From Rikenellaceae bacterium (GTDB taxonomy: Bacteria > Bacteroidota > Bacteroidia > Bacteroidales > UBA932), in assembly GCA_022771245.1 (NCBI GenBank), contig JALFCH010000091.1:1-40209 (forward strand): 40,209 bases of DNA. The letters are read 5' to 3'. Both the position numbers and the translations under genes were made by a program. Position 1 is the first letter of the stretch, and every line of letters starts with the position of its first letter. The notes beneath the pieces are model-generated. The model had not been told where the DNA came from. It was given only the letters and a program-made list of their open reading frames with translations, and made no database searches. Positions 7,432 through 30,555 of this stretch are shown piece by piece.

Positions 7432-9024
7432 ATGGATTATTTGGAAAATGCAAAGTCCTGGCTTCTCGGGGACTACGACGAGCAGACAAAGGCTGAGATT
7501 CACGCACTGATCGATTCCGGCAACACTACTGCACTGGAGGATGCCTTCTATCGTAGGCTTGAATTCGGTACTGGTGGTCTCCGCGGTATAATGGGTGTGG
7601 GTACCAACCGTATGAACCGCTACACCGTAGGTATGGCGACCCAGGGACTTGCCAACTATATTCTCAAGAATGTGCCCGGTGACAACCATTCCGTCTGCAT
7701 TTCTTTCGACAGCCGCAACAACAGCGCAGAGTTTGCCAAAATCACCGCCAACGTGCTTGCCAATAACGGTATTTCCGTTTGGCTCTATGACGAACTCCGT
7801 CCGATTCCGCTCCTGAGCTTCGCCGTGCGCCAGAAGAAGGCCACTGCCGGTGTTATGATTACCGCCTCCCACAATCCGAAGGAATACAATGGCTACAAGG
7901 TATTCTGGAGTGACGGTGCCCAGATCATCTCTCCTGTGGACAAAGACATTGTGGCTGAGGTGAATGCAATTACAGACCCGTCTATGGTCAAGTTCGAGCC
8001 GGGTGACAAGTGCGCAGAAATCACTCTTATGGGCAAGGAGATGGACAAGCAGTATATGGATGCTGTGACCACTCTGATGCTTTCTCCTGATTCCGTGAAG
8101 AATCACGAGGATATGAAGATAGTCTATACTCCTCTCCACGGTTCGGGTGTGCGGATTGTGCCGGCCCTCTTGGACAGAATCGGCTTCAAGAGCATCTATC
8201 ACGTGCCTGAGCAGGACATCAGCGACGGAAATTTCCCTACCGTCAAGTCTCCAAACCCGGAGAACGGTGAAGCCCTTACTATGGCTATTGCCTTGGCTGA
8301 CAAGGAGAATGCAGACCTTGTCCTTGCCACCGACCCTGATGCTGACCGCGTGGGTATAGCAGTACGTGACAACGAGGGTAAGATGGTGCTGCTGAACGGC
8401 AACCAGACCGGAGCAATACTTACATACTACATTCTCCGTCGTCGTAGCGAACTTGGCACTCTTGGGCCTAAGTGCTTCTGCGTCAAGACAATCGTCACAA
8501 CTGAACTCATCAGGGCAATATGTGAGAAATATGGAGTGAAGATTTACAACGTGCTCACAGGCTTCAAATTCATCGCCGACATCGTCAGGCGCAACGAACC
8601 GGACGGAGGTGAATTCGTCTGCGGAGGAGAGGAAAGCTACGGCTTCAATGTGGGTCAGTTCGTCAGGGACAAGGATGCTCCGATTTCCTGCGCTATGGTG
8701 GCTGAGTGTGCTGCCTGGGCTGCGGATCAGGGCAAAACCCTCTACCAGCTTCTCCAGGATATTTACGCCGAGTTCGGGTATTACAAGGAGGGGCTCGTGA
8801 GTCTTGTGCGCGAAGGAAAGGCTGGAGCCGAGGAAATAGCGGCCATTATGGTGGATATGAGGAACAATCCTCCGAAGGAACTCGCCGGCACTCCGGTTGT
8901 GAAAGTTGTGGACTATCTCAAGCCGGAGGAGACAGGTCTGCCTTCTTCCAATGTTCTCCAGTTCTATTCATCCGAGGGAGATGTCGTATCTGTCCGTCCT
9001 TCAGGAACTGAACCTAAGATATAG
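7432..9024 (+). CDS. Phosphoglucomutase/phosphomannomutase family phospho-sugar mutase, terminated by an in-frame TAG just after the RPSGTEPKI motif
   Basis: RRLEFGTGGLRGIMGVGTNRMN, GVMITASHNPKEYNGYKV, DPDADRVGIAV, GGEESYGF, VSVRPSGTEPKI. After TAG 9022-9024 the frame continues FYFGAHGNDADAKIAKMKEQFGL to TAA 9094-9096. Confidence 0.9.
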   Translation: MDYLENAKSWLLGDYDEQTKAEIHALIDSGNTTALEDAFYRRLEFGTGGLRGIMGVGTNRMNRYTVGMATQGLANYILKNVPGDNHSVCISFDSRNNSAEFAKITANVLANNGISVWLYDELRPIPLLSFAVRQKKATAGVMITASHNPKEYNGYKVFWSDGAQIISPVDKDIVAEVNAITDPSMVKFEPGDKCAEITLMGKEMDKQYMDAVTTLMLSPDSVKNHEDMKIVYTPLHGSGVRIVPALLDRIGFKSIYHVPEQDISDGNFPTVKSPNPENGEALTMAIALADKENADLVLATDPDADRVGIAVRDNEGKMVLLNGNQTGAILTYYILRRRSELGTLGPKCFCVKTIVTTELIRAICEKYGVKIYNVLTGFKFIADIVRRNEPDGGEFVCGGEESYGFNVGQFVRDKDAPISCAMVAECAAWAADQGKTLYQLLQDIYAEFGYYKEGLVSLVREGKAGAEEIAAIMVDMRNNPPKELAGTPVVKVVDYLKPEETGLPSSNVLQFYSSEGDVVSVRPSGTEPKI

Positions 9025-9108
9025 TTCTATTTCGGAGCACACGGCAACGATGCCGATGCGAAGATTGCTAAGATGAAGGAGCAGTTCGGTTTGTAAGTAC
9101 GCGAGTTT

Positions 9109-9864
9109 ATGACGAATCTGGTGCTTCCCGATGCAGAATCCTCAAGGCGGCTGGTATTCTTCCTTTCAATGGAGGAATACGCCGCCGACCATATCCGTGA
9201 AATTGCTCCGGAAGGAGCTTTCTTTATCTGGCAGGTTGATCCCACGGTCATTTTCGGGCGCAACCAGGATATGCAGGCAGAGGTGGATGTGGAGTTCTGC
9301 AAGTCAAGGAACATAGCTATGTACCGTCGCAAAAGCGGTGGAGGATGCGTGTTCGCTGACAGGGGAAACATTATGATTTCATACATCAGGCCTTGCACCG
9401 ACGTTTCGGTGCTGTTTTCGGAATTTCTGGACCGTCTTTCGGCATTTTTGCGCCATCTCGGAATACCTGCTGAGGTGTCCGGGCGCAATGATGTACTGGT
9501 GGACGGCCGGAAAGTATCCGGAAATGCCTTCTCCCTCCGTCCTTCCGGCACCGGCATAGTTCACGGCACTTTCCTCTACAATCTGGATTTCGGGACTATG
9601 TCCAAGGCCATCACACCCTCCCGTGCCAAACTGGAAAGCAAGGGTGTGAAGTCTGTGAGTCAGAGAGTTATGAATCTCAAGCCACTGCTGGATGCTAAGG
9701 GGTTGGGTCTGGACGGACTGAAGAGGGAACTGGTGGATTGGTTCTGTGACTCATCCCTGGAACTCGATGCGGCCCAAGTGGAGGCCATAGGCGAGATTGA
9801 AAAAGAATATCTGAATCCGTCATTCATAGCCGGACGCGCCGGTGTTTCGGATGACAGCCTTTAG
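9109..9864 (+). CDS. Lipoate--protein ligase family protein
   Basis: VIFGRNQDMQAEVD, MYRRKSGGGCVFADRGNIMIS, RNDVLVDGRKVSGNAF, HGTFLYNLDF; adjacent to gcv genes. Confidence 0.85.
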   Translation: MTNLVLPDAESSRRLVFFLSMEEYAADHIREIAPEGAFFIWQVDPTVIFGRNQDMQAEVDVEFCKSRNIAMYRRKSGGGCVFADRGNIMISYIRPCTDVSVLFSEFLDRLSAFLRHLGIPAEVSGRNDVLVDGRKVSGNAFSLRPSGTGIVHGTFLYNLDFGTMSKAITPSRAKLESKGVKSVSQRVMNLKPLLDAKGLGLDGLKRELVDWFCDSSLELDAAQVEAIGEIEKEYLNPSFIAGRAGVSDDSL

Positions 9865-18028: not shown

Positions 18029-20482
18029 ATGGAAGAACTCAACAAGAATACACAGAACTTCACCTCAAGCCAGGAGAACGATGAGGTTCAGTTCTCGATT
18101 TCAGATATTCTGTCAATTTTTGTACAGCACAAATGGTGGATGGTTGCCGGAGTGGCAATCTGCCTTGCGGCTGCCTGCTTCTACCTTTACAAGACTCCGT
18201 CAACCTATGTACGCAGTGCGAAACTCATAGTCGATGAGAGTCAGCAGGATGCGGCAGTGAGAAACCTTTCCTCCTTTTCCGGTGGCGGAATGCGTCTGAG
18301 GAACACCGTAGCCGTGGAGAACGAAATGGAGGCTTTCACCTCTCCGGACCTTATGAAAATGGTGGTGGAAAGGAACAATCTCCAGACTTCTTACACGGAA
18401 CACCAGTTCCTCAGGTCAGTTGAACTCTATGCCAACTGTCCATTCGAGATGGTACTTGCCGGTGACAATCCTACAGGTTCCTTCTCTTTCCTTGTGAAGA
18501 AAGTATCAGACAACAGTTTCGAACTGAGCAAGTTCAGGGTCGGGCAGGACAAACTTGACGGTTCTGTCACCGGTCGTCTCAACGACACCATCTCCACCCC
18601 TGCAGGAAGGCTTGTACTCGTTCCGACGCTGGGGCTTGACAACTGGAAGAACGATATCACCATCTCTTGGGTGAATTCTATGGCTAAGGCCAAGGCTCTG
18701 ACATCCAGACTTTCCGCAGACATCTCCAGCAAGGAATCCACAGTGGTGGTGCTCAGCTACAACGATAAATTTCCTTCACGTGCCGAAAACATACTCTCAT
18801 CACTCATCGATGTTTACAATGAGGTCTGGCTCTATGAGAAAAACCGTGCGGCCAGAAACACCAGCACATTCATCACGGAGCGTCTTGCAATCATCGAGAA
18901 TGAACTCGGCGGCATAGAAGGACAGCTCAAGAATTTCAAATCCGCCAACAATTTCACCGATATCAGGGCTGTGGCACAGCAGTATCTGGAAGAGTCATCC
19001 ACCTATGCCGGTAAACTTTTCGAGGTCAACAATCAGCTTTCAATTGCAGGATTCATAAAGGACTATCTCAACGACCCCGCACATCAAACCGACCTCATAC
19101 CTTCCAATCTCGGACTGATGGGCAACAGTGTGGACGGTCAGATTACCGAATACAACAAACTCATTCTTCAGAGAGACCGCTACAAGAACGTCGGAAGTTC
19201 CAACCCTCTCGTAGCTGACGTGAATGCCGCCATAGTTTCTCTGCGCAGCGCAATCCTCCGTTCAATTGACAATCTGATTGCGACTCTTTCCCTCGAAGCC
19301 TCCAGCCTCAAGCAGCAGGAAGACCAGATTCTCCGCCGCATTTCTTCAAGTTCCGGTCAGGAGTATGAACTGCTCTCTATGCAGCGTCAGCAGAAAGTGA
19401 AGGAGAGTCTCTACATCTTCCTTCTTCAGAAGAGGGAGGAGAACGAAATTACGGCACTCGTCAATGTCGGCAACACAAGAGTCATTATGCGTCCGAACGG
19501 TTCCCCTTCCCCAGTGTCGCCTAAGAGGTCTATGATTCTTCTGATTGCTATCGTGCTCGGTATCGGAATACCGTTCGCCTGGTTCTTCCTCCGTATCTTC
19601 CTTGATATGACAGTGAAGACAAGGGCTGACCTTTCCCGGCTCAGGGTGCCATTCCTCGCCGAGGTTCCGTTCTCCAAGATTGTCAAGAAAAAGTTCGGGT
19701 TCGTTTCCAAGAAGAAGAATGAGACAGAATCCTGCAAGATTCTCGTCAAACCTGGCAAGAGGGATATGATGAACGAGGCCTACAGGGTGCTCAGAACCAA
19801 CCTCGACCTTATGATGGGCAAAAAGGGAAGCAAGGTTGTGATGCTTACTTCTTTCAATCCGAGTGCAGGTAAGACCTTCACTTGTATCAATGTTGCCGCT
19901 TCGATGGCAATCAAGCCTTCCAAAGTGATAATGATTGACCTCGACCTGAGGAAGGGTTCTCTCGGGAAGAGCCTCAATATTGATGCTCAAGTCGGCATTT
20001 CATCCTATCTCAACGGGGACATTGACAGCATAGATTCAGTCATCACCGAGGTATCCAAAAATCTCTACTGTATACCTGTAGGGGTTCTTCCTCCTAACCC
20101 GACCGAACTCCTGCTTTCTGATCGCCTTCCTCAGTTGCTTGATTCACTCAAGAATACATACGACTATATCTTCATTGACTGTCCTCCTATCGAGATTGTG
20201 GCAGACTCTTCTATTGTCACTCAGTATACAGATGTAACTATCTTCGTGACAAGGGCAGGTCTGCTTGACAAGAGGGTACTTCCAAAAATCAACGAACTTT
20301 ACGATCAAAATCGTTTCAACCATATGTGCTTCATACTCAATGGCGTAGAAATGGCATACAAGCCTTACGCAAAGTCCGGTAACGGTTATGGCTATGGTTA
20401 TGGCTATGGTTACGGTTACGGGTACGGCTATGGTTACGGATACGGCAATTCTGATGAAGATTCAGGAAAACAAAAGAAATAG
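18029..20482 (+). CDS. Polysaccharide biosynthesis tyrosine autokinase (Wzc-like) with C-terminal (GY)10 tail
   Basis: Wzz-like N-terminus, KVVMLTSFNPSAGKTFTCINVAASMA (Walker A), VIMIDLDLRKG, YDYIFIDCPPIEIVAD; Tyr-rich C-terminus. Confidence 0.92.
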   Translation: MEELNKNTQNFTSSQENDEVQFSISDILSIFVQHKWWMVAGVAICLAAACFYLYKTPSTYVRSAKLIVDESQQDAAVRNLSSFSGGGMRLRNTVAVENEMEAFTSPDLMKMVVERNNLQTSYTEHQFLRSVELYANCPFEMVLAGDNPTGSFSFLVKKVSDNSFELSKFRVGQDKLDGSVTGRLNDTISTPAGRLVLVPTLGLDNWKNDITISWVNSMAKAKALTSRLSADISSKESTVVVLSYNDKFPSRAENILSSLIDVYNEVWLYEKNRAARNTSTFITERLAIIENELGGIEGQLKNFKSANNFTDIRAVAQQYLEESSTYAGKLFEVNNQLSIAGFIKDYLNDPAHQTDLIPSNLGLMGNSVDGQITEYNKLILQRDRYKNVGSSNPLVADVNAAIVSLRSAILRSIDNLIATLSLEASSLKQQEDQILRRISSSSGQEYELLSMQRQQKVKESLYIFLLQKREENEITALVNVGNTRVIMRPNGSPSPVSPKRSMILLIAIVLGIGIPFAWFFLRIFLDMTVKTRADLSRLRVPFLAEVPFSKIVKKKFGFVSKKKNETESCKILVKPGKRDMMNEAYRVLRTNLDLMMGKKGSKVVMLTSFNPSAGKTFTCINVAASMAIKPSKVIMIDLDLRKGSLGKSLNIDAQVGISSYLNGDIDSIDSVITEVSKNLYCIPVGVLPPNPTELLLSDRLPQLLDSLKNTYDYIFIDCPPIEIVADSSIVTQYTDVTIFVTRAGLLDKRVLPKINELYDQNRFNHMCFILNGVEMAYKPYAKSGNGYGYGYGYGYGYGYGYGYGYGNSDEDSGKQKK
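20384..20443 (+). repeat. 6-bp tandem coding repeat encoding (Gly-Tyr)10
   Basis: GGN TAY x10 in frame within the kinase C-terminus. Confidence 0.95.
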
Positions 20483-29253: not shown

Positions 29254-30555
29254 CTATTTTTCTGCGAGACAGAAGTCCAAATCTTTGGTAAGTTGCTCCT
29301 TGTCAAGTTTCTGCCCGATGAAGACCAATTTCTGCATCCTGTCTCCATAGACCGGGTCCCAGTCCTTCCTGAAATCAGGGTCCTGGCGGGCAATTTCCTC
29401 AAGGTCTTCTTCAGGAGCTGTGGCGTACCACTTTCCTGCTGCCTTGAGCTGGAACTGGCGGCCTGCCTGTTCGAATAGCCAGGACATATCCGTGTCGTCT
29501 GTGAAATAGCACAAGCCTTTGGCCCTGATGATGTTGTGAGGCCATTTCTTGGCTACGAAACTGTCGAAGCGGTTCATGTCGAAGGGCTGGCGGCGGCAAT
29601 ATACGAAGGTGCCAATGCCATATTCTTCCACTTCTCCGCCTTCGTGGTCGTGGTGGTGATGATGATGGTGGTGCCCTTCTTCGTGTTCCTCGTGCTCGTG
29701 ATGCCCGTGCTCGTGCCCGTGTTCGTGCTCCTCGTGTTCGTGCTCCTCGTGTTCGTGTTCCTCGTGTTCGTGTCCGTGGTGGTGTGCGTCCTCATCCTCC
29801 TCTTCATCGGGATGTTCGTCGTAAGGACTCTCGATACCCTTCATCCATCCGGCTGAGAGGCAGGTGGCATCATAGTCAAACAGGCCTGTATTCAGAAGTT
29901 TATCAAGATCCACATCTGCATAATTGCACTCGATAATTTCTGCCTTTGGCTGCAATTCCCTGATTATCTGCTTGATGCGGGCCAACTCTTTAGGCGAAAC
30001 ATCAGCTGCCTTATTCAGCAGTACAATATTGCAGAACTCGATTTGCTGGATTATGAGGTTTTCAATGTCCTCTTCATCTATGTTCTTCATAACCAGAGTG
30101 TCTCCGCAGTCGAATTCGCTCTGCATCCTCATCGCGTCCACCACCGTGGCAATGCAGTCCAGACGGCAGGTACCGTATTTGGTATAGAGTCCTCCGAGGG
30201 AAGGAATGGAACAGATGGTCCTGGCTATAGGTTCCGGTTCGCAGATTCCGCTCGCCTCAATTACCACATAGTCGAATTTTCCGGTCCTCGTGAGTTCGTA
30301 GAGCTGTTCTATCAGGTCTGTCTTTAGCGTACAGCAGATGCATCCGTTCTGCAATGCCACCAAGCTCTCGTCCTTCTTGCCCACAACTCCTCCTTTCTGA
30401 ATCAGGTCCGCATCTATGTTAACCTCTCCTATATCATTAACTATCACTGCGAAACGTATGCCTTTGCGATTGTTCAGAATCCTGTTCAGCAGGGTGGTCT
30501 TGCCGCTTCCGAGGTAACCTGTGAGCAGCAGTACTCGAATTTCTTTGTTTTCCAT
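29254..30555 (-). CDS. COG0523 (CobW/ZNG1-type) GTPase, putative metallochaperone with long His-rich linker
   Basis: LLTGYLGSGKTTLLNRIL, GCICCTLKTDL (CxCC), VIEASGICEPEPIARTI, His/Glu-rich insert, C-terminal CobW_C-like segment. Confidence 0.92.
   Translation of the reverse strand: MENKEIRVLLLTGYLGSGKTTLLNRILNNRKGIRFAVIVNDIGEVNIDADLIQKGGVVGKKDESLVALQNGCICCTLKTDLIEQLYELTRTGKFDYVVIEASGICEPEPIARTICSIPSLGGLYTKYGTCRLDCIATVVDAMRMQSEFDCGDTLVMKNIDEEDIENLIIQQIEFCNIVLLNKAADVSPKELARIKQIIRELQPKAEIIECNYADVDLDKLLNTGLFDYDATCLSAGWMKGIESPYDEHPDEEEDEDAHHHGHEHEEHEHEEHEHEEHEHGHEHGHHEHEEHEEGHHHHHHHHDHEGGEVEEYGIGTFVYCRRQPFDMNRFDSFVAKKWPHNIIRAKGLCYFTDDTDMSWLFEQAGRQFQLKAAGKWYATAPEEDLEEIARQDPDFRKDWDPVYGDRMQKLVFIGQKLDKEQLTKDLDFCLAEK
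29719..29772 (-). repeat. 15-bp tandem repeat (GTGTTCGTGCTCCTC on +, ~3.6 copies) encoding EEHEH units
   Basis: Copies at 29719-29733, 29734-29748, 29749-29763 (1 mismatch), partial 29764-29772. Confidence 0.9.

Follow-up and report, generated by a model that had tools for sequence, protein, structure and literature searches.

The gene and its in-frame amber codon

When a reading frame is interrupted by a stop codon and the codons behind it still look conserved, the stop may be an assembly error, a recent mutation, a site of programmed readthrough or a codon with an altered meaning, and the question raised by the present locus is which of these applies to a single TAG in a bacterial phosphoglucomutase/phosphomannomutase-family gene. 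The gene lies in a stretch of 40,209 nucleotides (the window, meaning the whole stretch of DNA that was analysed), which is contig 15 of a 2.07-Mb metagenome-assembled genome in 176 contigs, 89% complete, whose nearest named relatives are Bacteroidales metagenome-assembled genomes, including several Candidatus Cryptobacteroides. From position 7432 the frame runs to ...RPSGTEPKI, meets TAG at 9022-9024 and then stays intact for 23 codons before TAA at 9094-9096, so that the residues across the amber site are PKI-X-FYFGAHGNDADAK, X being the TAG codon, and the window DNA over 9004-9096 reads GGAACTGAACCTAAGATA TAG TTCTATTTC...GGTTTG TAA. As written, the ORF encodes 530 amino acids, and 554 when the TAG is read as Lys, whose codon AAG differs from it by a single base. 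The features of the locus are as follows.

7432..9024, plus strand: phosphoglucomutase/phosphomannomutase-family ORF that closes with the private TAG after 530 aa (ORF list; PF02878, PF02879, PF02880)
9022..9024, plus strand: in-frame TAG, codon 531, Lys (AAG/AAA) in relatives (sequence and comparison with relatives)
9025..9096, plus strand: remainder of domain IV, 23 codons and the ancestral TAA, encoding the C-terminal helix and the greater part of the final beta-strand
9109..9864, plus strand: lipoate-protein-ligase-like gene (annotation of the preliminary description), 12 nt past the ancestral TAA, itself ending in TAG

The TAG is the sole lesion in the gene. The preliminary description had reported the amber codon with its intact downstream frame and a natural TAA 12 nt ahead of the lipoate-protein ligase ATG (9109); both are found exactly so, the 12-nt gap also being present in the nearest relative (L032, contig CAMCFO010000012.1, 97% protein identity), and its account of the locus proved accurate in every particular tested.

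Domains I-III are recognized in the ORF above the Pfam cut-off (PF02878, PF02879, and PF02880), and the catalytic and metal-binding motifs TASHNP and DPDADR are present. The PGM_PMM_IV domain (PF00408) matches the 554-aa form at 30.9 bits, above its cut-off, and this match is lost in the 530-aa form; as written, domain IV is thus incomplete, keeping the RPSGTEP phosphate-binding loop and needing the TAG to be read through for the match. The likeness to the alpha-D-phosphohexomutase superfamily is nevertheless close, with all four domains recognized in the read-through frame and 69-97% identity to 41 aligned relatives, and the difference is confined to the end of domain IV, where the frame as written lacks 24 residues. 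Judged from its sequence, the gene is a member by descent of the PGM/PMM (alpha-D-phosphohexomutase) family that carries a truncation. Against solved structures the full-length protein has many homologues, the best of which align mostly outside domain IV, and the C-terminal 85 residues searched alone gave no match. A search of this genome for a second intact copy of the gene found none, the superfamily members in it being only distant ones with 25-40% identity over parts (contigs C83 and C133).

Codon 531 in related genomes

A Lys codon had been expected in place of the TAG, and comparison with close relatives bears this out. All 137 relatives' loci that span the site encode Lys (112 AAG and 25 AAA), and TAG occurs among spanning loci only in three copies of this very window locus. 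The nearest relatives carrying AAG are 97% identical in protein and about 85-86% identical in DNA, and L032 is one of them. AAG is also found in G106, the nearest genome compared, where the phosphoglucomutase gene is split between L197 (contig 36, right end) and L297 (contig 42); as the two parts lie at two contig ends, that assembly broke within the gene. Lys 531 is invariant across 42 aligned proteins, the row for the window itself having been read with Lys. A wider scan of 399 family genomes, using a degenerate pattern of the flanking residues with TAR or AAR at the codon, recovered AAR in 329 genomes from 24 of 26 genera and TAR in one, the present genome, so the conserved stop that programmed readthrough would call for is not seen. 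On these sequence comparisons the stop is private to one metagenome-assembled genome.

Constraint on the tail and age of the stop

The codons behind the TAG had been described as conserved, and they are in fact constrained much like the remainder of the gene. Relative to L032, dN/dS is 0.015 before the TAG and 0.027 over the 23 codons after it, the latter value being rough given so few codons yet sufficient to exclude long drift. About 1.1 synonymous changes per site separate the two genes, while nonsynonymous differences are few and scattered along the gene, only one post-TAG codon having an amino-acid change. The tail has therefore been under selection on this branch until very recently, or still is, and the low dN/dS with few, scattered nonsynonymous changes gives no sign of long pseudogene drift, indicating that the stop is not old. 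The assignment of 9025-9096 to the tail of domain IV is based on this constraint together with the PF00408 match, found in the read-through form only, and the strand and helix predicted there.

Decoding of UAG and programmed readthrough

Two readings would give the TAG a coding role, and both are very unlikely. Under suppression or reassignment, UAG would be read as an amino acid in this genome, wholly or partly, and the only pointer to this is the apparently useful tail behind the TAG. The release factors argue otherwise. L176 carries VQRVPQTE, a PxT motif (here PQT), and GGQ, L175 carries SPF and GGQ, and both are intact; from these motifs we take L176 to be RF1 and L175 to be RF2, PxT being the UAG-reading motif. 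The loss or alteration of RF1 that a reassignment of UAG would entail is thus not observed. All 34 tRNA genes could be typed and none has a CUA anticodon, a search suggested by the preliminary description; the assembly being 89% complete, this count is not absolute and a suppressor tRNA gene could be absent from it. TAG also serves as an ordinary stop, as had been stated for the dsbD fragment, nusB, yajC, gcvT, and the wza-like gene, and as is likewise the case for ybbR, lplA, wzc, ywqE, and rpmE2. Where TAG-ended genes could be compared with their G106 orthologues, all 20 stop at the same end (TAG in 11, TAA in 7, and TGA in 2 of the G106 genes). A gene-by-gene comparison of 60 stretches of this genome with 60 of G106, covering about one third of the genome, revealed no other in-frame stop in 127 genes and 47,371 aligned residues, where reassignment would predict many in-frame TAG codons; the genome is therefore neither broadly recoded nor broadly damaged. 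In the reverse direction there were five candidate stops in G106, none at the phosphoglucomutase gene, which seem to reflect the choice of start codon, antisense or alternative ORFs, or local divergence. The earlier judgement that genome-wide reassignment is unlikely is hence upheld on all four counts (RF1, tRNAs, shared gene ends, and no other in-frame stops), codon reassignment is rejected, and its probability is close to negligible. It is hardly more credible that UAG is efficiently read by an unrecognized near-cognate or missing suppressor tRNA, which would restore full-length phosphoglucomutase from a recently mutated gene.

Programmed amber readthrough would yield two isoforms, the 530-aa and the 554-aa enzyme, and would also need post-TAG codons that are conserved and constrained, as they are here. 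A constrained tail, however, fits readthrough and a very recent event alike, so that conservation of the stop itself is what discriminates, and no relative shares the TAG; the constraint can therefore be explained without readthrough. The local context does not favour it either. The base right after the TAG is T, and RNA folding downstream is weaker than that of shuffled sequences (z = +1.46), for which reason a downstream RNA element was rejected. At 37 C, the TAG reporters of an E. coli library gave on average about 0.03% of the wild-type signal, and a T following the stop lowers readthrough (PMC11126739); since the reporter host is E. coli and not a Bacteroidales species, these context data are supporting evidence only. 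Moreover, with a fold element partly missing, the truncated form is unlikely as a useful isoform. Of the three options that the preliminary description had left, error and recent nonsense allele survive, whereas programmed readthrough, with Lys in the sister genomes and the TAG unconserved, does not, although it remains a shade less improbable than the readings above.

Effect on the enzyme

In the read-through protein as modelled by AlphaFold (mean pLDDT 78, pTM 0.79, with about 85-91 near the C-terminus), residue 531 is the third residue of a predicted strand, 529-537, which is followed by a helix, 541-551. The stop would remove most of this strand and the whole helix from domain IV and leave the RPSGTEP loop in place. 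In the PMM/PGM of P. aeruginosa, the interface between domain 4 and the remaining enzyme includes positions 430 and 432, and R432A alone lowers kcat/Km to about 10% (PMC3369874). By count from the conserved loop, these positions would correspond to the lost strand, just past the cut. With the cut falling within a beta-strand and the final helix lost, the short product is probably impaired, and the 530-residue enzyme is probably weak or unstable.

This bears on a further reading, in which the 530-aa protein is a selected functional variant, the product of an adaptive truncation or of altered coupling to the lipoate ligase gene. Retention of the phosphate-binding loop and the lack of any lesion other than the TAG would suit such a variant, but every relative read has the full tail, the cut falls inside a confidently predicted strand with loss of the helix behind it, and the single R432A substitution is already costly in P. 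aeruginosa; we consider a selected truncation extremely improbable.

Origin of the stop

The TAG is almost certainly a nonsense difference confined to one genome and without any programmed role, most likely a consensus error or minority variant, or else a recent nonsense allele. Several observations stand behind this: the stop is confined to this genome, the C-terminal residues are conserved and under constraint, the genome has RF1, the tRNAs found include none with CUA, and TAG ordinarily ends genes here. Since the stop was seen in none of several hundred related genomes, it points to a fault of the assembly or to a chance mutation of recent date, not to a new decoding trick. In the former version, a wrong consensus base would have entered the fragmented assembly, or a minority strain variant would have been taken up by the assembler, and we infer that about half of the weight belongs here; most of the remainder, about an equal share, goes to a real and recent nonsense allele. 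That the compared third of the genome holds no further internal stop is a mild argument against a high error rate, and the gene's strong constraint is a mild one against a real loss that is tolerated. Should the allele be real, RF1 would terminate at codon 531 and the cell would make a 530-residue enzyme, probably weak or unstable, that retains the RPSGTEP loop but has lost the closing helix of domain IV and the greater part of its last strand.

The phenomenon is an ordinary one. Like other private nonsense alleles or consensus errors in metagenome-assembled genomes, it is a single-genome stop, one base off the usual codon, with an intact and constrained downstream frame, and we saw no feature that distinguishes it from them; no paper on premature stops in assembled genomes emerged from a literature search. 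Its biological weight is small, and its value is that of a worked example. A conserved tail behind a stop in one assembled genome is by itself no pointer to readthrough, since the trace is identical when the base is wrong or the mutation very recent; the deciding test is conservation of the stop itself, and here the stop is not conserved. A real allele would amount to a phosphohexomutase truncated naturally at its C-terminus, meriting a routine assay at most.

Other features of the window

Repeats were noted at three other places. At 20377-20446, the gene for a Wzc-like tyrosine kinase terminates in repeated Gly-Tyr codons (GYGYGY...), which register as a tandem repeat with a unit of 6, 12 or 18 bases; kinases of this family usually have tails rich in tyrosine. 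On the minus strand, at 29648-29793, tandem repeats of 15, 30, and 42 bases lie in a His/Glu-rich stretch of a CobW/G3E-type GTPase, which we take to be metal-binding. Finally, an imperfect 21-base tandem repeat of 2.5 copies occupies 363-414, in the gap separating the first partial gene from the one after it.
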